DNA of 64,000 nt from assembly GCF_001423425.1 (NCBI RefSeq), contig NZ_LMNX01000001.1, positions 1,355,001 to 1,419,000 of the forward strand, in the 5' to 3' direction. Shown here piece after piece: positions 28,928 to 43,668 of the stretch. Position 1 is the first letter of the stretch, and the number at the start of each line of letters is the position of its first letter. The stretch is from Rhizobium sp. Leaf306. GTDB taxonomy: Bacteria; Pseudomonadota; Alphaproteobacteria; Rhizobiales; Rhizobiaceae. The notes below the pieces were generated by a model. It worked only from the letters and a program-made list of their open reading frames with translations, had not been told where the DNA came from and did not search any database. A program made the translations under genes and the position numbers.

Positions 28928-29012
28928 GCCCCATTGGCGGAACTGGTAGACGCGCTCGACTCAAAATCGAGTTCCGAAAGGAGTGCTGGTTCGATTCCGG
29001 CATGGGGCACCA
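28928..29012 (+). tRNA. tRNA-Leu (anticodon CAA)
   Basis: Complete 85-nt class II tRNA: acceptor GCCCCAT/ATGGGGC, anticodon stem CTCGA/TCGAG with loop CTCAAAA (anticodon CAA), long variable arm, T loop TTCGATT, discriminator A and encoded CCA. It borders the prophage integrase gene, so it is the likely attachment site. Confidence 0.97.
28975..29012. other. Putative attL within the 3' half of tRNA-Leu
   Basis: Inferred from the integrase gene lying 92 bp beyond the tRNA and pointing towards it. Integrases of this type recombine in the anticodon-to-T-arm part of tRNA genes. The exact core cannot be read without attR. Confidence 0.4.
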
Positions 29013-29103: not shown

Positions 29104-30198
29104 TTACTTTCCCCCCTCGCTCCTTTCATCGATGTCGTCGAACAGGCTGATCGCGCTCTCCGCCAGTAGCTTCTGATTTGCCGCCTTCGTGTATCGCGAC
29201 ACCTCTTTCGATGTCGTATGACCGGTCACCGACATGATCTGTTTCTCGGTGGCGCCTCTCTCAGCTAGCCTCGCTGATGCGGATTTTCGCAGACCATGCG
29301 CGCTGCAATGGGGAAGGCCCGCATCATTGCACTGCTTGCGAAACCAGTTGCCAAACCCTGCAGCGGTGAAGCCTTTGTTGCATTCGGTCACGAGGAACGT
29401 GAGATCGCCGACAGGCGATGCATCAATGATCTTCTGCAGCTTCGGATGAACTGGGATCTCCAGCGTAATCGGCTTTTTCTTCCGGCCTTTGAACTGCGTA
29501 AACTTTAAACTGCCGTTGCTGACGTGCTGCCTGCCGAACAGGATGATGTCGCTACGACGCTGACCGGTGTAGAGCATCAGCGCCAACGCGAGCCGAGGCT
29601 TCGTGCCGATCTTGTGCTTCTCCTCAAACTTCGCAATCTCGTCTTCAGTCCACGAATGATAGCCGTCGCCTTGCTGAGCGAAGAAGGACACATCTCTCGC
29701 AGGGTTAGTCAGCATCAGTTCGACGTCGCTTTTGCAGGCCCACGCGAATATCGCGCGCAGCGCTTTGGTCCGGCTGTTAGCCGCTTCCGGCTTCTCTGCC
29801 TTGCGGTCTCTCAAAACTCGGACGGCTTTTGCAGTGATGGCAGCGATCGGCATGTCTTCAAAAAGACGCGAGCTGTCCTTCTTCAGAGGCTCGGCCCACA
29901 TGTGCTCGATGATCAGCTTACGGACGTGGCGCGTCCTCTGGTCCAAGCGCTTGTATTCGGCCGACTGGAAGTACTGCTCGCAGAGCCAACGAAGGGAATT
30001 TTTCGTGGATAGCTTCGGGCCCCTCGCCTCTTCGAGCGCTGTGCCATTCACAGCGATGTAATAGGCCTCGTTGAACTCGTCGCTTCCCGGCACGCCAGGA
30101 AGCCGGATCTTCTTCTGGCCGCGCTTGCGGAAATAGAAGCGCAGGACGCCATCCGTGCGATCCTCAATCACGTACTTCTTTGCAAACTTCTTTGGCAT
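29104..30198 (-). CDS. int: Tyrosine recombinase / phage integrase
   Basis: 364-residue site-specific recombinase that inserts and excises the prophage. The catalytic domain shows Arg I in YTGQRRSDI, the HGLRKSAS (HxxR) box, TGHTTSKEV and the nucleophile Tyr in SRYTKAA. The N-terminal arm-binding region is rich in Lys/Arg (FYFRKRGQKKIRLPG). The Met at 30198 overlaps the stop of the Xis-like gene by 1 bp, so I prefer it to the Met six codons upstream. Confidence 0.95.
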   Translation of the reverse strand: MPKKFAKKYVIEDRTDGVLRFYFRKRGQKKIRLPGVPGSDEFNEAYYIAVNGTALEEARGPKLSTKNSLRWLCEQYFQSAEYKRLDQRTRHVRKLIIEHMWAEPLKKDSSRLFEDMPIAAITAKAVRVLRDRKAEKPEAANSRTKALRAIFAWACKSDVELMLTNPARDVSFFAQQGDGYHSWTEDEIAKFEEKHKIGTKPRLALALMLYTGQRRSDIILFGRQHVSNGSLKFTQFKGRKKKPITLEIPVHPKLQKIIDASPVGDLTFLVTECNKGFTAAGFGNWFRKQCNDAGLPHCSAHGLRKSASARLAERGATEKQIMSVTGHTTSKEVSRYTKAANQKLLAESAISLFDDIDERSEGGK

Positions 30199-30446
30199 CA
30201 CACTTCCACGGACCAATCGTCTGCGTCGTCAGGATCTCCACCAGGCAGACGCGTGAACGCCCGGTCAAGTGCCACGCGGTCCCAGATCGTCCGGGCGTTG
30301 GCCTTCTTTGGTTTCGGCATTCTTCCATCGCCCACCATTTCGTCAAATAGGCTGGAAGATACGCCGATGTACGCCGCAGCCTGGTCACGTGCCAAGCCGC
30401 GTGGTGGGAGGGAGATCGGCAGAACTTCTGCGCGCTGTGCTCTCAT
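30198..30446 (-). CDS. AlpA/Xis-like helix-turn-helix DNA-binding protein
   Basis: 82-residue protein with a MerR-type winged helix: LARDQAAAYIGVSSSLFDEM, DGRMPKP, then TIWDRVALDRAF. This is the pattern of AlpA-type excisionase/regulator proteins (residues about 18-65). Its stop overlaps the integrase start, so it probably sets the direction of recombination or regulates int. Confidence 0.85.
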   Translation of the reverse strand: MRAQRAEVLPISLPPRGLARDQAAAYIGVSSSLFDEMVGDGRMPKPKKANARTIWDRVALDRAFTRLPGGDPDDADDWSVEV

Positions 30447-36386: not shown

Positions 36387-37837
36387 CTGAGCTTACGATC
36401 CGTGACAGCTCGGAATTGGTTGCCTGCATAGAAACGGCGCGGGCGTTGCTGGATGCCGGTGATGTCGAACGCGCGCTCAAACTTTCGTCCGTGGCCTATG
36501 ACCAGGCCAAGGCTGTTGCCGGTTCCGCGGAACGCGTGAAGACCTCGCGCGACCTGGTCGACAAGGCGCGGCGCATGCAGGCGGAAGCGCTGAAGATCGA
36601 AAGCCTCTGCTATGTCGCCATGGCGGATGCCGTCGACGACGCGCAGGCGAAGGGGCAAATCGCCCGACCGGGTCGCCCATCAAATATTCCCGGCGAGAAT
36701 GTTTTCACTCTCCAGGATGTCGGCTTGGACGCCAAGCATCTGCATGAGGCCCGCAAGCTGCGCGACCACGTGCGCGACGAGCCGGACTTCGTGGAGCGCG
36801 TCATCGAGGTGCGGCTGTCCGAAGGGCTGGAGCCGAGCCGCGCGGCACTGAAGAAGGCGGCGCGGCACGCGACCGGCACCAAGACAGCAACCAAGGAAGA
36901 GCGCGGCCACGATCTCTACGAGACGCCGAGCGAAGCCATGCGGACGCTGCTGGCGCTGGAAAGCTTCAGCCTGAATGTGGTTGAGCCGAGCGTCGGCAAA
37001 GGTGCGATCCTGCGTCCGCTTGAGACGGCGGGCTACGAGGTGACCATCTCCGACCTCGTCGATCGCGGCGTCACGACGCAGCATGGCGAGTGTCAGGGCG
37101 TTGGCGACTTCCTTCTTTCCGTCGGTCAAGATGGCGGCTGCGACATCGTCACGAACCCGCCCTATGGCGTGGCGAATGCGTATGTCGCTCACGCTCTACG
37201 CGCTCACAAGCCGCGCAAGATGGCGATGCTGCTGAACCTCAACTTTCTTTGCGGTTTCGACGATGCCGACAGGTGCTTCGTGATGGACGAATGCCCGCCA
37301 TCGCGGGTTTACGTCTTCACCCGGCGATTGCCGATGATGCACCGCGACGGCTGGGAAGGCGACAAGGCTAGCTCTCAGATGAATACGGCTTGGTTCATCT
37401 GGGAGCGGAACGATGACGCCAGCTATGGCGTCGGACATCCGCAGCTCATCCGTGTTGACTGGAAGGCATTCGAGACGGCTGACCCACTGACGCCGGGCGC
37501 CGGCGGGTTCGTTTCACCGCTGCGCTTCGATGCGCCGGATGACGAGTTTACCCGCATCACGCCTCGCAAGACGCTGGAAGAGCGCTGCGACGAAGAAACT
37601 GCGCGCGCGCTGGTGTGGATGGCAGAGAACCCCGGCTTTGACGCGGCACGGCTGCGGCGCGGGATTGGCGTGCGACCATCGGTTGCCGATGCGCTGATTG
37701 CGGACCTCGCGGCGAAGGGTCTGATCTGGGCCGGCCACGATGATGACGGGTGGCAGATCTCTCCGGCTGGAATGTCTGCACTCAACGCCACGGCTGCGGT
37801 GCTGCTCGGCGCGACACTCGACGAGGTGGCGGCATGA
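36383..37837 (+). CDS. Phage DNA adenine methyltransferase-like protein with N-terminal helical domain
   Basis: 484 residues. The core is a gamma-type N6-adenine methyltransferase: DLYETPSEA (177-185), SAM motif I EPSVGKGAI (201-209) and catalytic NPPY (258-261). The first 165 residues are helical and Lys/Arg/Ala-rich, unlike a minimal phage Dam; residues after about 400 look like a winged helix (ARALVWMAENPGFDAARLRR). No partner restriction gene is near, so it is an orphan methylase that may protect phage DNA or mark the origin. The start at 36383 overlaps the upstream stop; earlier codons in frame are rejected. Confidence 0.82.
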   Translation: MTELTIRDSSELVACIETARALLDAGDVERALKLSSVAYDQAKAVAGSAERVKTSRDLVDKARRMQAEALKIESLCYVAMADAVDDAQAKGQIARPGRPSNIPGENVFTLQDVGLDAKHLHEARKLRDHVRDEPDFVERVIEVRLSEGLEPSRAALKKAARHATGTKTATKEERGHDLYETPSEAMRTLLALESFSLNVVEPSVGKGAILRPLETAGYEVTISDLVDRGVTTQHGECQGVGDFLLSVGQDGGCDIVTNPPYGVANAYVAHALRAHKPRKMAMLLNLNFLCGFDDADRCFVMDECPPSRVYVFTRRLPMMHRDGWEGDKASSQMNTAWFIWERNDDASYGVGHPQLIRVDWKAFETADPLTPGAGGFVSPLRFDAPDDEFTRITPRKTLEERCDEETARALVWMAENPGFDAARLRRGIGVRPSVADALIADLAAKGLIWAGHDDDGWQISPAGMSALNATAAVLLGATLDEVAA

Positions 37838-38151
37838 ACCCCGACTTTTCCCCCGCGATGCTGCGCGGCTTCGTTAATGCGCGGATCCAGATGGCCGGCT
37901 TTCGCGCGGCATTTCCAGACGAACGCAAGAGCGCCCGCCGCAAGGAACTGAGCTTCGACGAGGCCTGCGCCGCTGAGCGCGCTCACCTCATTCGCCGTGC
38001 GGACATCACACCGGAGCAGCTGGATCTGGTCCTGTCCGGTCGCCGTATTTCGCCGGCTCCGCGCGAGCGGCTTTGGAAGGCACTGGACGCGGACCCCGGC
38101 CGGTTCGGCATCCGCCTCGTTGGCATGACCGAACAGGAGATTGTTCGATGA
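37834..38151 (+). CDS. Hypothetical phage protein, possible DNA-binding
   Basis: 105 residues from the Met that overlaps the methyltransferase stop (ATGA). The segment ITPEQLDLVLSGRRISPAPR resembles a helix-turn-helix. Not recognised beyond that. Confidence 0.6.
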   Translation: MNPDFSPAMLRGFVNARIQMAGFRAAFPDERKSARRKELSFDEACAAERAHLIRRADITPEQLDLVLSGRRISPAPRERLWKALDADPGRFGIRLVGMTEQEIVR

Positions 38152-38432
38152 TCCCCGAAATCGATCGCGACCGTTTGGCAATGGACACACGCGACTGGCT
38201 GAAGTCGACAGGCCTTTCAACGCGCAACGCCTCATCTGCGCATGAAGGACTGAACCCGGCGATGATCTCGCGCGCGTGCAGCTGTCAGGTTTTGTCGGCA
38301 GCAAGCCACCTCGCGCTATGCACGGCGATGGGTGTCGATCCTTCCGACTATCTCGTCTTCCATGATCGAGGCCAGCGAAATCAGGCTGTTACAGCATCTG
38401 CGCAACGTGAAACACCGAGGGCGGTCCCTTGA
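38148..38432 (+). CDS. Hypothetical phage protein with Cro/CI-like fold hints
   Basis: 94 residues. LNPAMISRACSCQVLSAASH and LALCTAMGVDPSDYLVF look like the recognition helix and following helices of small phage DNA-binding proteins. The start overlaps the previous stop by 4 bp. Confidence 0.55.
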   Translation: MIPEIDRDRLAMDTRDWLKSTGLSTRNASSAHEGLNPAMISRACSCQVLSAASHLALCTAMGVDPSDYLVFHDRGQRNQAVTASAQRETPRAVP

Positions 38433-38716
38433 ACCCCATCCTCGATATTCTGGCGGACCTGCAAAACGACCGGGCGCGGGCTGTGTGGCTTTCGACCATT
38501 CCGCTCGGCGTCATCCAGCGCGACCACGCCGACATCGCGGCTGTTCTTGGAGCTGCCGGCTTCTCCGGCGGGCTGGTCTATCTCGCAGCGCTCGTCGCTC
38601 ACGTCAATTCGGTGCGGCTGGAGGACGGGTCGATCCCGATCGAGACGCGCCAGATCACGGACTATTCCCGCAAACTGATGTGGGGCGCCGTCAAGCAGGG
38701 GGAAATGGTGGAATGA
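38429..38716 (+). CDS. Hypothetical phage protein with TTG start
   Basis: 95 residues beginning at a TTG that overlaps the upstream stop (TTGA) and is preceded by GAGGG. Contains a hydrophobic helical middle (ADIAAVLGAAGFSGGLVYLA). Not recognised. Confidence 0.55.
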   Translation: MNPILDILADLQNDRARAVWLSTIPLGVIQRDHADIAAVLGAAGFSGGLVYLAALVAHVNSVRLEDGSIPIETRQITDYSRKLMWGAVKQGEMVE

Positions 38717-39960
38717 CATCTGAGCCCCGTCTTTCGATCATACCGGGATGGATCGTTACGGACCCGCGCCTGAAGGGCAAGGATCTGCAAGTGATCTGCA
38801 TGCTGGGAAGGAACGCCAACACCCGCCACGGCTGGTGTCGGCGAAGCCAGGTGAAGCTTGCTGAGGCGCTGTCGTGCTCGCGCTCGACAGTCCAGGCGGC
38901 GATTGATCGTCTTGTGGAAATTGGTGCGCTGGAGCGCAAGAAGGTAGAAAGCGCGAGCGGTCGTGACAGCGCTCACTGGTATCGAGTCATCTATGATTCA
39001 GCCGTCGATAGCTCTGCATTTGACGCATGGGACGCCGACGACAAAGAGGAATTTGATCCTAATTCCTCTGCTTCAGCTGGTGCGCCCCCTGCCGGTATAC
39101 CGGCACCCCCTGCCGGTCCAGAGTCGGCACCCCCTGCCGGTTCTGGACCGGCACCTATTAACGCCTCTACTTTAACGCCTCCTGCTAAACGAGAAGAGAG
39201 AGAGCGCGCGAGCGAAGACGATGAAGGGGAAGAAAATCCCAAAGCGCTGGAACGGCGTTTTCGGAAATGGTGGTCGTCATGGCCGACATACGCCATCGAC
39301 GCTGAGATGCCGACACGGCGTGCCTGGCAGGATCTGGCGCCGGAGCAGCGCAAGGCCTGCGAGGAACGGACCCCTGACTATCTCGCTGCGGCCAAGGCCA
39401 GCGGTCGCAAGTTCTCCAAGGCTGCGGCGACCTATCTCTCGGAACGGGCGTGGGAGCGCCTCGACGACAGGCCTGCAGCAGCGGCGACGCCTGAGAGGCA
39501 CAATCCATATTCGCGCGCCTGGAGCGCGCTGCGCCTTGCAGAGCTATCGAAACCGCCTGTCCATCTGACGCTCACGCCATTGGAAGCGCAGATCATCGAA
39601 GCGAAGCCTGAGAAGGATGCGGTGATCTGGCGCGACAAGCGCGAAAAAGCCGGATGGCCAGAGGCCGTTAAGCTGAACGATGGGGCACGTGAGCGTCGCC
39701 CGGTGTTCGTTAATCCGCGCATTGTCTCGATCTCTTCGAGCTTCGACAAGGTCGCAGTCGGCGGCGAGATCTGGGACGCTTGGAAGCGGCTGCATGCCGA
39801 TCGTTGCTGGCCGTGGCTGCCAGAGCCGAACGGGTTGCCGTTCGTGCAGTTCCCGGCCTTGCCGGAAGGCATTGAAGATCCTGATGAGGCGGTGGCTGCT
39901 GCCCTTCGCGAGTTCCAGAAGAAGCTGATCGAGGTACGGGACCATGACCATGCAGCATAA
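38713..39960 (+). CDS. Putative phage replication initiator with winged-helix N-terminus
   Basis: 415 residues from the Met overlapping the previous stop. Residues about 10-95 form a winged helix (WIVTDPRLKGKDLQVICML; GRNANTRHGWCRRSQVKLAE; SCSRSTVQAAIDRLVEIGAL), as in lambda O-type and other phage replication proteins. A Pro/Ala/Gly linker built of APPAG units (about residues 123-150) follows, then an acidic stretch and a conserved C-terminal domain with RRFRKWWSSWPTYAID and RAWQDLAPEQRKACEERTP. The linker-coding DNA contains direct repeats that may be the origin. The role is inferred from the winged helix and position. Confidence 0.7.
   Translation: MTSEPRLSIIPGWIVTDPRLKGKDLQVICMLGRNANTRHGWCRRSQVKLAEALSCSRSTVQAAIDRLVEIGALERKKVESASGRDSAHWYRVIYDSAVDSSAFDAWDADDKEEFDPNSSASAGAPPAGIPAPPAGPESAPPAGSGPAPINASTLTPPAKREERERASEDDEGEENPKALERRFRKWWSSWPTYAIDAEMPTRRAWQDLAPEQRKACEERTPDYLAAAKASGRKFSKAAATYLSERAWERLDDRPAAAATPERHNPYSRAWSALRLAELSKPPVHLTLTPLEAQIIEAKPEKDAVIWRDKREKAGWPEAVKLNDGARERRPVFVNPRIVSISSSFDKVAVGGEIWDAWKRLHADRCWPWLPEPNGLPFVQFPALPEGIEDPDEAVAAALREFQKKLIEVRDHDHAA
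39082..39182. other. Candidate phage replication origin: three 15-bp direct repeats plus AT-richer stretch
   Basis: GCGCCCCCTGCCGGT (39082-39096), GCACCCCCTGCCGGT (39103-39117) and GCACCCCCTGCCGGT (39127-39141), with inverted ACCGGCA elements beside them, then an A/T-richer segment (39154-39182) with TTAACGCC twice. In lambda the origin iterons lie inside the initiator gene in the same arrangement. The repeats also encode APPAG, so protein-level repetition is the alternative. Confidence 0.45.
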
Positions 39961-40639
39961 AATCACGGGCAAGAAGATCAGCTACAAGCCAATGATCGCT
40001 TCAGACCTGACGAACTCGGAACGGCGAAGGATCGACGACGGGAAGGTTAAGGCCGAACGGGCTCGCAACGCGCATCATAATCTCGTGCGGATGGCACGAA
40101 AAGATGTTGTCGGTTTCGATTCACGGGCTCGTTGGATCGTTGGCACCTGCCGTTCTGGAACAGAGCAGGCGATAGGTGAGGAGCTGAAAGAGCAGAGGAT
40201 CAAGACCTGGTGCCCGCTCGAACACTTCAGGACTAGACCTCGGAGAGGGCTGAAGCCTGTGGATATCTTCAGACCATTCTTCAGAGGGTATCTCTTTGTG
40301 CAGGTTGTTCCGTGCCACGAAGCGTTTGCTGGAGTGCTATGCGCATCGCGTTTGAACAGCCTTATGGGGCGTGATGGCGAGCCTTTCCTGATGCCTCCGA
40401 AGTTGATGGATGCTCTGATGCTATCGGTGCAGAAAAATGATTTGAAACAGGATGATGAGAGGCCTTTGCCAGTTCACAAAGGGGACAGGATTACCATCCG
40501 TTCGGGTCCATTCGTGGACTTCCAAACGACGGTCAGGAAGGTGATCGGAGAGCGATGGAAGCTACAGGCTGAGGTGAACATATTCGGCCGCATGACGCCA
40601 ATTGAGCTGGACATTGACTCTGTCGCGCTCTCGCCGTAA
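39944..40639 (+). CDS. Phage NusG/RfaH-family transcription antitermination protein
   Basis: 231 residues. After a basic N-terminal extension (1-60) comes a NusG N-terminal domain (about 62-135): RWIVGTCRSGTEQAIGEEL, KTWCPLEHF and the hallmark FRPFFRGYLFVQV. A KOW domain follows (about 178-215, HKGDRITIRSGPFVDFQTTV). NusG binds the RNA polymerase clamp; specialised paralogues such as RfaH act at particular operons. Last gene before the late operon, it occupies the place of lambda Q and is followed by hairpins and an intrinsic terminator. It overlaps the end of the initiator gene by 17 bp. A Met two codons in is the alternative start. Confidence 0.85.
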   Translation: MTMQHKITGKKISYKPMIASDLTNSERRRIDDGKVKAERARNAHHNLVRMARKDVVGFDSRARWIVGTCRSGTEQAIGEELKEQRIKTWCPLEHFRTRPRRGLKPVDIFRPFFRGYLFVQVVPCHEAFAGVLCASRLNSLMGRDGEPFLMPPKLMDALMLSVQKNDLKQDDERPLPVHKGDRITIRSGPFVDFQTTVRKVIGERWKLQAEVNIFGRMTPIELDIDSVALSP

Positions 40640-40651
40640 CGATTCGAACAA

Positions 40652-40678
40652 GCCGATGGTGAGTCTATCTCCATCGGC
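40652..40678 (+). other. Stem-loop after the NusG-like gene
   Basis: GCCGATGG, 11-nt loop, CCATCGGC: a perfect 8-bp stem starting 13 bp after the stop, with no T run. A second, smaller stem GCCTC/GAGGC lies at 40750-40765. Together they form a structured leader of the late transcript. Confidence 0.55.
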
Positions 40679-40810
40679 ATACGGGATGACCGGAGCGTCT
40701 GATGCTGCCCTTTCGGGTATTGATGTTCTCCTCTGGCCCCAGCCTTGAAGCCTCTCGAGTGAGGCACCGATTCAGGGCAAGTGCTACAGCTATGAGATGA
40801 CGAATGATGA

Positions 40811-40832
40811 GGCGGCCGGAAGGTCGCCTTTT
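40811..40832 (+). terminator. Intrinsic terminator just before the late genes (tR'-like)
   Basis: GGCGGCC GGAA GGTCGCC followed by TTTT: 7 bp including one G-T pair, with a GNRA-type loop. It ends 13 bp before the ATG of the late HNH gene, so late transcription must read through it. Confidence 0.7.
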
Positions 40833-40845
40833 GTCGTGTTAGAGT

Positions 40846-41214
40846 ATGCCTCGTCTTAAGTCCCTGCCACCTCGACTGACCTCGATGCCGCCTCGTCTTG
40901 GACGTGCTGTCGGTGATGAAAAGGCCAGACGGAGAGAGCGCGAGATCAACACGCCGAACCGCAGCTGGTATCACAGCGCACGTTGGAAGAAGCTGCGGCT
41001 CAAGGTTTTCGAACGTGACAGCTACACGTGCAAGCAGACCGCAGCGCTCTGTCTCGGCCAGCATCCCGCTCCTAACAGTCCAGTCTGCGACCACGTCAAG
41101 CCGCATCACTGGGACGAGCAGTTGTTCTGGGACATCGACAACCTGCAGACCGTGACCAAAGCCTACCACGACAGCGAGAAGCAGAAGCAGGAGCGGGCAC
41201 AGCCCGGATGGTGA
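40846..41214 (+). CDS. Late HNH endonuclease of the packaging module
   Basis: 122 residues with the packaging-HNH pattern: WYHSARWKKLRLKVFERD, Cys37-type knuckle YTCKQ ... LC, DHVKPHHWDEQLFWDIDNLQ and a final HDSEK. Such HNH proteins sit next to terminase genes in HK97-like phages and are needed with TerL for cos cleavage. No ribosome site precedes the ATG; the terminator hairpin is directly upstream. Confidence 0.88.
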   Translation: MPRLKSLPPRLTSMPPRLGRAVGDEKARRREREINTPNRSWYHSARWKKLRLKVFERDSYTCKQTAALCLGQHPAPNSPVCDHVKPHHWDEQLFWDIDNLQTVTKAYHDSEKQKQERAQPGW

Positions 41215-41215
41215 G

Positions 41216-41394
41216 ATGGCAACAGCGAACGTCGATGCTGCTGAGGTCATGAGCAGCTTGACCCTGACGTTCACACTGACGCGCACCTATCGGGCTCGCA
41301 TGTGGATTGCACTCGTCTGATCCTCCTCGCAGGCTTGATCCTTGGCACGTCGATCGTAATCGTCGAGGCGGACAACGACCAGGCCGAGACCTGA
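41216..41394 (+). other. Small membrane-protein frame split by an apparent -1 frameshift
   Basis: Frame one (41216-41320) encodes 34 residues ending TRTYRARMWIALV. The -1 frame continues as LILLAGLILGTSIVIVEAD until 41394. Read together they give one small protein with a membrane helix, as found in this position in related phages. Separately, neither makes sense. It may be a mutation, a programmed shift or a sequence error. Confidence 0.4.
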
Positions 41395-41485
41395 CCCCAC
41401 CCCGTCGACCGGGAGGGGGGGGGTCGAAAGTCTGGAACCCCTCTGCCTCCTGCACCCGCGTCCCCCGCATTCAGGGAATTTTTTT

Positions 41486-41975
41486 ATGTCGGATGAGAAT
41501 TTCGACCTCTTCGGAATGCCTTTCGTGGACAAGCCCTCGAAGCGAGGCCGTCCCGCTCATGAGGTCAGCAAAAAAAAATCGCAATCGCGTCAGTATGTTA
41601 TTGGCAATGGGCTGGACAAACCCTCGGATTGCGTCGGCTCTGGGCGTCACTTTGCCGACGTTGCACAAGTATTATTTTTACGAGCTTCGCGGTCGTGAGG
41701 TCGCTCGGGATCGGATGGAGCTCCGGCGGATCGAGCTGGCATGGGAGCTCTCCGAGAAAGGTAACGTTGGCGCTCTGAAGGAATTCGGCAAGCTGATGGA
41801 GCGTAGCGATCGCATGGAGATCGAACGCGAGTTGGCATCGACGCCAAAGGACACCAAGCCTGCGCCAACCGAGCGGGTTGGCAAGAAAATTCTCACCGAG
41901 CGCCAGGCGATCGATGCGGACGCCGATCTAATGGCAGAGCTGGAGCAGGAAGCTCAACAGCATGCACGTCACTGA
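41486..41975 (+). CDS. Terminase small subunit, reading frame interrupted at an A9 run
   Basis: DNA-recognition subunit of the packaging motor. Translation from the ATG at 41486 reads MSDENFDLFGMPFVDKPSKR and GRPAHEVSKK, typical of this family's N-terminus, then leaves frame at nine A's (41570-41578). The rest, RNRVSMLLAMGWTNPRIASA and LGVTLPTLHKYYFYELRGR (helix-turn-helix), then the C-terminal helix, is in the +1 frame and ends at 41975, overlapping terL by 14 bp. Skipping one A joins both parts into about 162 residues. An unbroken frame exists from 41307, but its N-terminus has no family features. Confidence 0.75.
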
Positions 41976-43668
41976 AGATCTGCCGCGGTTCGCCTGTCCC
42001 GATTGGTGGGAGAGACTGCAGGCTGGCCAGACGCCCATGGCTGACGTTCCCTTGAACGAAGCCAAGGCAGCGAAGGCGGTTGCATTCTTCAATCGTCTGC
42101 GCCTGCCTGACATTGCTGGTAACCCTCCGCTGTCAGAAGCGTGCGGTGACTGGTTTCGTGAGATCCTTTGCGCATTCCTCGCAAGCGAAGATCCGGAGAC
42201 AAAACGTATCCTGGTCCGTGAGCTGCTTTGCATGGTCCCGAAGAAAAACTCCAAGACGACTTACGTTGCGGCTTTGGGGCTGACGGCACTTTTTATGGAG
42301 GAAGCGCCAAATCGACAGATGCTGATTGTTGCGCCAAGCCAGAACATCTCCACGCGCTGCTTTGAGCAGGCACAAGGCATGATCCGGATCGACCCGCGCT
42401 TGAAAAGCATCTTCGACGTGCAGGACAGCGACAAGCGGATCACGCGTATTAAAACCGGCACGAAGCTGGACGTGAAGACGTTCGACACGGGTATCATCAC
42501 CGGTGAGATACCAATCCTCACAATCATCGACGAGCTGCACGAGCTGGGGAAGAAGAACAAAGCCGCGGCTGTCATGCAGCAGATCAGAGGCGGTGGCATC
42601 ACGATGCAAGGCGGTCAGGTTCTCATGATCACCACGCAATCTGATGAGGCTCCAACCGGGATCTGGAAGATAGAACTGGACAAGGCGCGGGCAATTCGGG
42701 ACGGCAAAGGAGGTGGCGCGCCGATTATGCTTCCTGTCCTCTATGAGTTTCCTTTCGAGAAGCAGGTGGATCAGGAATACTGGCGCGATAAGAGAAACTG
42801 GGGCGCCGTGCTTCCAAACCTCGGCCGGTCGATTGATCCCGAACTTCTCGTTGATGACTACGAAAACAACGGGAAGGTTAATCTCGAAGCCGAACAGATA
42901 TGGACCAGCCAGCATCTGAATATTCAGATCGGGGTCGGGATCGGGGGCGACGGATGGTCAGGGGCGGTTCACTGGTCCGACTGCGTCGATCCGAAACTTT
43001 CGGGGCTAGATGACCTTCTGCACCGATCGGAAGTTTGCACCATCGGCATTGACTGGGGCGGCGCGGACGATCTCGCAGCGCTGTATGTCATCGGACGAGA
43101 GAAGGTGACCAAGCGATGGCTTGGGTGGGGGCAGGCCTGGGCCCGCCAAAGTGTCTTTGAGAGGCGTAAGGGGATCTCGTCGCGCCTAAGAGAATTTCAG
43201 GCATTGGGCGAACTGATCATCTCCAAGAGCAGCGAGGACCAAGCTGCATCCGCGGCCGATATCTGTCGGCGCATTGCCGATACAGGGCTTTTGCCTGAGG
43301 CGAGAGGCATCGGACTGGACTCGGCGGGCATCGCGTTGCTGTTGGATGCACTTGAGGCAAGGAACCTTGAAGCACCTCAGCTCGAAGCTGTCGCACAGGG
43401 ATGGAAACTCCAGACCGCAATTTCTTCTGTGCCGCTCAAGTTGGAAGATAAAAGGTTCATGCACGGCGACCAAGCCCTCATGGCGTGGGCAGTTGGAAAT
43501 GCCAAACAGACCCTCCGCGGCAGTAACTACGTTGTGACCAAGGAAATTTCAGGGGCGGCAAAAATCGACCCTCTGATGGCACTATTCAATGCTGCCATGT
43601 TGATGTTCCTCAACCCTGAAGCAATCGGCCGCTCTGTCTACGAGACGCGCGGAATAAGGATGATCTGA
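41962..43668 (+). CDS. Terminase large subunit (HK97-like)
   Basis: ATPase-nuclease that packages phage DNA. The 568-residue protein has a Walker A-type P-loop VPKKNSKT (92-99), Walker B LTIIDELHE (186-194), and a C-terminal RNase H-like nuclease with the acidic motif GIDWGGADDLAAL. Full length and intact. It overlaps the small subunit gene. Confidence 0.96.
   Translation: MHVTEDLPRFACPDWWERLQAGQTPMADVPLNEAKAAKAVAFFNRLRLPDIAGNPPLSEACGDWFREILCAFLASEDPETKRILVRELLCMVPKKNSKTTYVAALGLTALFMEEAPNRQMLIVAPSQNISTRCFEQAQGMIRIDPRLKSIFDVQDSDKRITRIKTGTKLDVKTFDTGIITGEIPILTIIDELHELGKKNKAAAVMQQIRGGGITMQGGQVLMITTQSDEAPTGIWKIELDKARAIRDGKGGGAPIMLPVLYEFPFEKQVDQEYWRDKRNWGAVLPNLGRSIDPELLVDDYENNGKVNLEAEQIWTSQHLNIQIGVGIGGDGWSGAVHWSDCVDPKLSGLDDLLHRSEVCTIGIDWGGADDLAALYVIGREKVTKRWLGWGQAWARQSVFERRKGISSRLREFQALGELIISKSSEDQAASAADICRRIADTGLLPEARGIGLDSAGIALLLDALEARNLEAPQLEAVAQGWKLQTAISSVPLKLEDKRFMHGDQALMAWAVGNAKQTLRGSNYVVTKEISGAAKIDPLMALFNAAMLMFLNPEAIGRSVYETRGIRMI

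Follow-up and report, generated by a model that had tools for sequence, protein, structure and literature searches.

A close described analogue of the locus reported here is LoaP of Bacillus velezensis, a NusG-family protein that binds an RNA hairpin in the dfn and mln leaders, where the 5′ leader hairpin is followed by a terminator and then by a long operon. RfaH, addressed by ops, is an NGN-KOW paralogue of NusG that serves long operons and has an RNA polymerase-binding NGN fold and an α-helical KOW domain; in cells it protects from Rho and couples ribosomes through KOW. In phage lambda, Q is encoded by the last early gene and is followed by a leader, the terminator tR′ and the late operon, and N, a short disordered peptide, acts through a leader RNA hairpin (nut boxA/boxB) that loads the antitermination complex, boxA being read by host factors. 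Here we describe a locus in a 64,000-nucleotide stretch of Rhizobium sp. Leaf306 (the window, C1:1355001-1419000 of the 5.0-Mb genome), in which a phage gene for a NusG-family protein is followed by a conserved leader element (class A), a predicted terminator and the late genes. The NusG-family protein probably loads onto host RNA polymerase at this leader and would carry it through the predicted terminator into the late genes; what the data support directly is the family of the protein, the order of the genes, a leader that is conserved and covaries, and the location of this leader behind a NusG-like gene.

The locus shares with LoaP a NusG-family protein and a leader hairpin that precedes a terminator and a long operon, and because the phage leader hairpin covaries LoaP is a closer analogue than RfaH. 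It differs from LoaP in that the leader consists of two nested stems (P1/P2) and a core motif, with mostly GNRA or UAC-A/U/C loops instead of the UNCG loop of LoaP, and lies directly behind the protein's own gene, before the structural genes. With RfaH it has in common the NGN-KOW architecture, but the KOW domain is predicted as β-structure and the leader hairpin covaries as RNA. The order of last early gene, leader, terminator and late operon is that of lambda Q, with a NusG paralogue in place of Q, no apparent late promoter and a covarying RNA element in the leader. The use of a leader RNA hairpin, perhaps partly read by the host, recalls lambda N, from which it differs in that the partner is a NusG paralogue from the phage. 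PMC12691694 describes LoaP as the only known RNA-associated bacterial NusG-like protein. The accessible text of PMC12429752 reports a "transcription antiterminator" beside HNH where the early region of phiLM21-like prophages ends, the same place as here; that text mentions neither NusG nor a leader element, and the likeness drawn here is one of position and name. The words NusG, antitermination and antiterminator are absent from the main text of PMC5537653 and PMC8631192, and in the accessible parts of the open-licence literature we found neither a NusG paralogue that runs a phage late switch nor the class A leader.

The protein gene and the parts of the leader lie as follows, in window coordinates.

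39944-40639, + strand: phage NusG-family (NGN-KOW) protein, proposed late antiterminator (PF02357, phrog_6386, AlphaFold2 model)
40652-40678, + strand: 8-bp stem (GCCGATGG/CCATCGGC), from sequence, fold and gap regions of relatives
40731-40841, + strand: class A leader element, full covariance-model extent (108.4 bits to model R1)
40742-40778, + strand: P1 hairpin, GCCTTGA (40742-40748) pairing with TCAGGGC (40772-40778) and enclosing P2
40750-40754 with 40761-40765: P2, GCCTC/GAGGC, the tip of the larger hairpin
40779-40794, + strand: core motif after P1, near-invariant, family form CAGUGC-NNNN-GCUAUG
40810-40832, + strand: terminator-like hairpin with T tract (stem 40810-40829, T's to 40832)

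The gap between the NusG-like gene and the first late gene is 206 nt long and holds the stems that the original prediction, made from the letters of the sequence, had pointed out. Both are present: that at 40652-40678 lies outside the stretch conserved by blastn, and that at 40750-40765 does not stand alone but forms the tip of P1, within a larger conserved element (40742-40794) that is followed by the terminator stem. Across the family P1 (GCYYUGA/UCARRGC) encloses a variable P2 and is followed by the core, a linker and a terminator stem (GGCGGCC/GGUCGCC) with T's; the core contains a 2-bp mini-stem with a tetraloop, which is UACA in the window and GNRA in most relatives. The window leader folds better than its shuffles (z -2.76; 1/200 shuffles equally good), and a consensus fold of 23 whole leaders adds little beyond the element (single-leader mean z -2.1, from -4.35 to -0.72). 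No Rfam covariance model matched 40500-41000 at E ≤ 1.

When 401 nt comprising the gene end, the leader and the start of HNH were compared by blastn, only ∼98 nt matched. Four of the matching records are phages, PPF1 and Rivra, which match over window 40735-40832, and phi2LM21 and phi3LM21; identity in these four is 76-85%. A fifth match was the Sinorhizobium (S.) medicae plasmid record pMl3, at 76%. In all five records the gene just upstream of the matched stretch is annotated as NusG or as an antitermination protein. The pMl3 record (locus L304) is circular, 50 kb long, and carries a terminase, a portal and the NusG-like/leader pair; its content suggests a phage or phage-plasmid that was deposited as a plasmid.

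A covariance model of the element, blind to NusG, was then run over 394 genomes of the window's family, taken to be the Rhizobiaceae, to which the named relatives belong, and 52 matches were fetched. All 45 matches of at least 35.5 bits lie 48-137 nt behind a NusG-like open reading frame (ORF) on the same strand (E ≤ 2.1e-25), one of these loci (G100) having belonged to the training set, and none of the 7 matches at or below 33.9 bits does so. The strong matches at the window, G289 and G171 were known NusG loci and are not among the 45, and covariance E-values are untrustworthy below ∼35 bits, 277/394 genomes matching at E ≤ 0.01. In the genomes with two or three fetched strong matches (G377, G113, G081), every match is accompanied by a NusG-like gene of its own. 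Thus every testable strong match sits behind a NusG-like gene. The exact core pattern in IMG/VR gives the same picture, in a set that overlaps the model's elements (for example L215 and L220) and is therefore not independent: a NusG-like ORF ends 92-155 nt upstream of the core in 74 of the 80 loci listed, and the remaining 6 have only ∼38-246 nt of upstream DNA. The window's own genome yields 22 matches at E ≤ 10, with a single strong one at 108.4 bits, a score that is not independent since R1 was trained on 24 sequences including the window element, and the next at 32.1 bits. A second host operon under the same control was considered and rejected, the fetched weak matches L155 and L156 having no NusG-like gene.

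A long upstream frame overlaps the start of the NusG-like gene at 45/45 genome loci, and a frame of at least 380 codons follows within 4.5 kb downstream at 44/45, the remaining locus (L113) ending too early for the large terminase subunit (TerL). The TerL proteins, which account for these frames, belong to two families, phrog_9 (25/45) and phrog_15 (20/45), and of the 21 least similar to that of the window 20 match phrog_15 and 1 phrog_9. The Q-like order proposed originally (last early gene, leader, terminator, late genes) is thus found in the window and recurs across phages with two TerL families. A search at the level of the order gave 2/397 genomes at E ≤ 1e-9, both from the window's family.

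We assessed covariation on two alignments. The training alignment held 24 distinct elements obtained with nhmmer, and in a plain MAFFT alignment of these, not fitted to any structure, 93.3% of the cells pair, both sides of a pair change in 7/22 pairs (a value reached by 6/500 shuffles), and covariation is 0.196 compared with 0.107 ± 0.010 in shuffles (0/500). In the alignment of 70 elements fitted to the model, both sides change in 18/22 pairs, covariation is 0.274 versus 0.116, and 119 cells carry changes compared with 29.6 ± 6.1 in shuffles, none of 500 being as high; sliding the pairing by 1-3 columns lowers it to 28-51%. By stem, both-side changes occur in 6/7 pairs of P1 (2/7 in the unfitted 24), in 5/5 pairs of P2 (4/5) and in 7/8 pairs of the terminator stem (1/8). 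An element of the kind expected by the original prediction, a shared recruitment-like site within 40640-40810, is therefore found at 40742-40794, conserved, with covarying stems and behind NusG-like genes, and the comparison of related phages' leaders that it had proposed reveals this element both by blastn and by covariance model.

Over 61 loci the leader has changed less than the protein: its median identity is 62% (38-96%), that of the protein 26% (15-98%), and the two identities correlate at only 0.37. These values would also fit a leader that is an attenuator or processing site independent of the protein, which would then act elsewhere, for example on host NusG; we consider this very unlikely, given that all testable strong elements lie directly behind a NusG-like gene and that there is no second strong site in the window's own genome. 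Rather, the greater conservation of the leader suggests that part of it is probably read by host components (RNA polymerase, NusA or S10), which evolve slowly, and only another part by the NusG-like protein.

The NusG-like protein has 231 amino acids. It had been described as a full NGN-KOW protein encoded by the last early gene, and on this the Pfam NusG profile (38.9 bits, cut-off 22.2), phrog_6386 "transcription antiterminator" (E 6.3e-31, residues 59-227) and the AlphaFold2 model agree. The phrog_6386 profile is unspecific, matching 366/394 genomes at E ≤ 1e-12 with host NusG included, and was discarded as a test for phage NusG since host NusG also matches. Host nusG is a separate gene (G000:C1:15535-16044) whose product is 32% identical to the phage protein, the alignment starting at residue 62 of the latter; the NGN domain of the phage protein is preceded by an extra N-terminal stretch (residues 1-60, window 39944-40123). 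Among the NCBIfam models the protein misses the cut-offs of the housekeeping NusG equivalog TIGR00922 (61.8 of 135.7 bits), of LoaP (NF033641, 30.9 of 125 bits) and of RfaH (TIGR01955, 37.1 of 144.5 bits), and in a quick tree the 8 host NusG proteins form one clade (SH-aLRT 100) that excludes it. No match to a Q protein family was found, the only profiles at E ≤ 1e-3 being phrog_6386 (PHROGs) and NusG (Pfam). The model (mean pLDDT 88.8, pTM 0.63) has an N-terminal helix at residues 24-51, an NGN fold and a NusG-like β-barrel KOW with strands at 182-229, and the C-terminal α-hairpin of RfaH is absent from this prediction. On the score and the predicted barrel together RfaH membership was rejected, and the earlier label "RfaH-type" is not supported.

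The nature of the core bears on how the protein would be recruited. No pair of the core mini-stem shows a both-side change among the 70 elements, and a longer mini-stem (P3) that we tried yields no extra pair of this kind, so that the non-covarying core could be read as RNA or as DNA. The same switch might thus operate with recruitment by non-template DNA in the core, as ops does for RfaH: polymerase would pause at GCTATG, GC-NNNN-GC would be read as a small DNA hairpin, and P1/P2 would just stabilize the pause. A near-invariant core fits this as well as it fits RNA, its motif presumably resembles the ops hairpin, and Foldseek retrieves RfaH-ops complexes with the protein model (NusG chains come top, RfaH complexes from rank 18, and 8f5g, a NusG-like chain with bound RNA, at rank 25; TM-scores over the whole chain are low, the best query-normalized value being 0.41 among the best 50 matches). 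However, P1 and P2 covary as RNA, the predicted KOW is not RfaH-like, and the mini-stem loop alternates as an RNA loop would, with GNRA in 41/70 and UAC-A/U/C in 17/70 elements (GACA in 3, UGCU in 2, other readings in 7, and the UNCG tetraloop in 0/70). A DNA address is hence unlikely in our view, and recruitment through the leader RNA remains the preferred reading.

The terminator had been predicted as an intrinsic terminator just before the first late gene. A stem with T's does lie there, the ATG at 40846 being 13 nt beyond the T tract; by itself it is not beyond chance, and the case for it comes from its conservation in relatives. The whole terminator stem is aligned in 56/70 elements. By eye, L131 has a shorter stem, in eight loci (L051, L143, L147, L148, L149, L153, L154 and L158) the core and a T-tailed hairpin further on are separated by other DNA, the terminator of L145 is doubtful, and L139, L142, L144 and L150 keep the core with no terminator stem in the next ∼340 nt. 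The constant part is the core and not the terminator, which fits an antiterminator acting far downstream. The last four loci would also suit a protein that mainly shields late mRNA from Rho and couples ribosomes via KOW and does not override an intrinsic terminator. In keeping with such a role, the KOW phenylalanine F214 is invariant in 30 homologues, and we take it to be the counterpart of the residue through which E. coli NusG contacts Rho or S10. We are doubtful of this explanation, as the terminator stem covaries and is whole in most elements, and of the other 14 one has a shorter stem and 8 a T-tailed hairpin further on.

Several of these observations weigh against antitermination at the leader, and others join them. 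The alignment of 70 elements leans towards its own structure, so that the result on 24 (7/22 pairs) is the cautious figure, and the covariation shuffles do not preserve relatedness; the core, moreover, shows no covariation. The consensus scan of 37800-42000 omitted the terminator and found 2 terminator-like sites compared with 2.8 in shuffles, and the T tract in the window is short (TTTT). The four loci with a core and no terminator stem weaken the leader terminator as the sole gate. The association with the NusG-like gene could partly reflect shared descent of one gene block, because the overlapping upstream frame is also constant. Nor is the element universal: NusG-like genes with other leaders exist (L292-L296, L301, L302), and the Agrobacterium vitis prophages L047, L049 and L050 have a NusG-like gene without the element. 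In L047 and L050 no terminase was present in the 7 nearby frames scanned (of 32 listed), and the late block looks lost.

A second leader type (GACGAGCCG ... GCGCC...CGGCCC) occupies the class A position in L293, L294, L295, L296 and L301; statements on it refer to these five loci, for which a consensus fold was drawn, with no established covariation. A third type (GGAACTGCGC ... GTGCACGA.ACGCCCTCCAACCCTG) occurs in L292 and L302. The labels B and C were given by eye, and L298 and L300, labelled B without good ground, carry other leaders. Two further candidates, L299 and L303, were set aside, as by eye they look like host nusG and are followed by an rplK-like start. A tRNA-Met (CAT) separates the NusG-like gene from the late genes at L149:5995-6071, behind a class A core, and at L298:5308-5385. 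The motif GAYGGGTG occurs between the core and the later hairpin in L145, L148, L153, L154 and L158, and is also present in L297, which lacks a class A element.

The surrounding genes run rightward, by profile matches, as CII-like regulator, DNA methyltransferase, replication initiator, NusG-like gene, leader, HNH, an ORF of unknown family, TerL, portal and protease. The provirus would start at ∼29104 if it is colinear with the identical IMG/VR provirus, and the end of the replication initiator overlaps the start of the NusG-like gene by 17 nt.

28928-29012: tRNA-Leu, adjoining the putative provirus start
29104-30216: integrase gene (phrog_1)
38332-39960, + strand: replication initiation protein, encoded directly ahead of the NusG-like gene (phrog_270, E 2.4e-37)
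40846-41214, + strand: HNH endonuclease, first late gene (phrog_589, E 4.9e-22)
41307-41975: ORF of unknown family (phrog_12540; small terminase subunit, TerS, by position only)
41962-43668, + strand: terminase large subunit, late operon (phrog_9, E 1e-84)

Given its intergenic position upstream of HNH and the terminase, the conserved stretch could be imagined as a packaging signal (cos or pac). This we regard as extremely improbable. The stems of the leader show RNA-type covariation; the linear record of PPF1 runs on for 720 nt past the element, and that of Rivra, listed as circular and perhaps opened arbitrarily, for 602 nt. A separate GC-rich region resembling the Rivra end lies ∼600 nt downstream, at 41412-41490 between HNH and the next gene. 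It consists of GGTCGAAAGTCTGGAA, then CGCACCCGCG-like bases and then a T run, and is likely the cos region.

Taking the NusG-family protein as an antiterminator recruited at the leader, the switch might work as follows. Early transcription would continue past the replication gene and the NusG-like gene to reach the leader; a consensus scan listed no sigma-70-like promoter between 38741 and 42000, a negative that carries little weight in an alphaproteobacterium. With little protein present, transcription would mostly stop at the terminator (40810-40832). Once more protein has built up, it would encounter polymerase when P1/P2 emerges from the exit channel and the core is being transcribed, and its NGN domain would bind the polymerase clamp, the usual NusG contact. 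The bound protein would then block hairpin-driven pausing and termination and stay on polymerase across the late operon, giving processive antitermination.

We therefore lean, with some reserve, towards the broader proposal that a family of Rhizobiaceae phages switches on its late genes via a dedicated NusG paralogue and, inherited together with it, a leader RNA that is not in Rfam, with 40742-40794 as the candidate for the recruitment site that the original prediction sought. If true, this would be the first case of a NusG paralogue running a phage late switch and, after LoaP, the second NusG paralogue with an RNA address. Because the NusG-like genes of relatives are also followed by at least one further conserved leader type, paralogue and RNA address may have been re-paired in evolution, and the dozens of natural protein-leader pairs, at a median protein identity of 26%, would reveal the contacts that are fixed. 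We know of no worked-out late switch in alphaproteobacterial phages, and the system described here would give them one.

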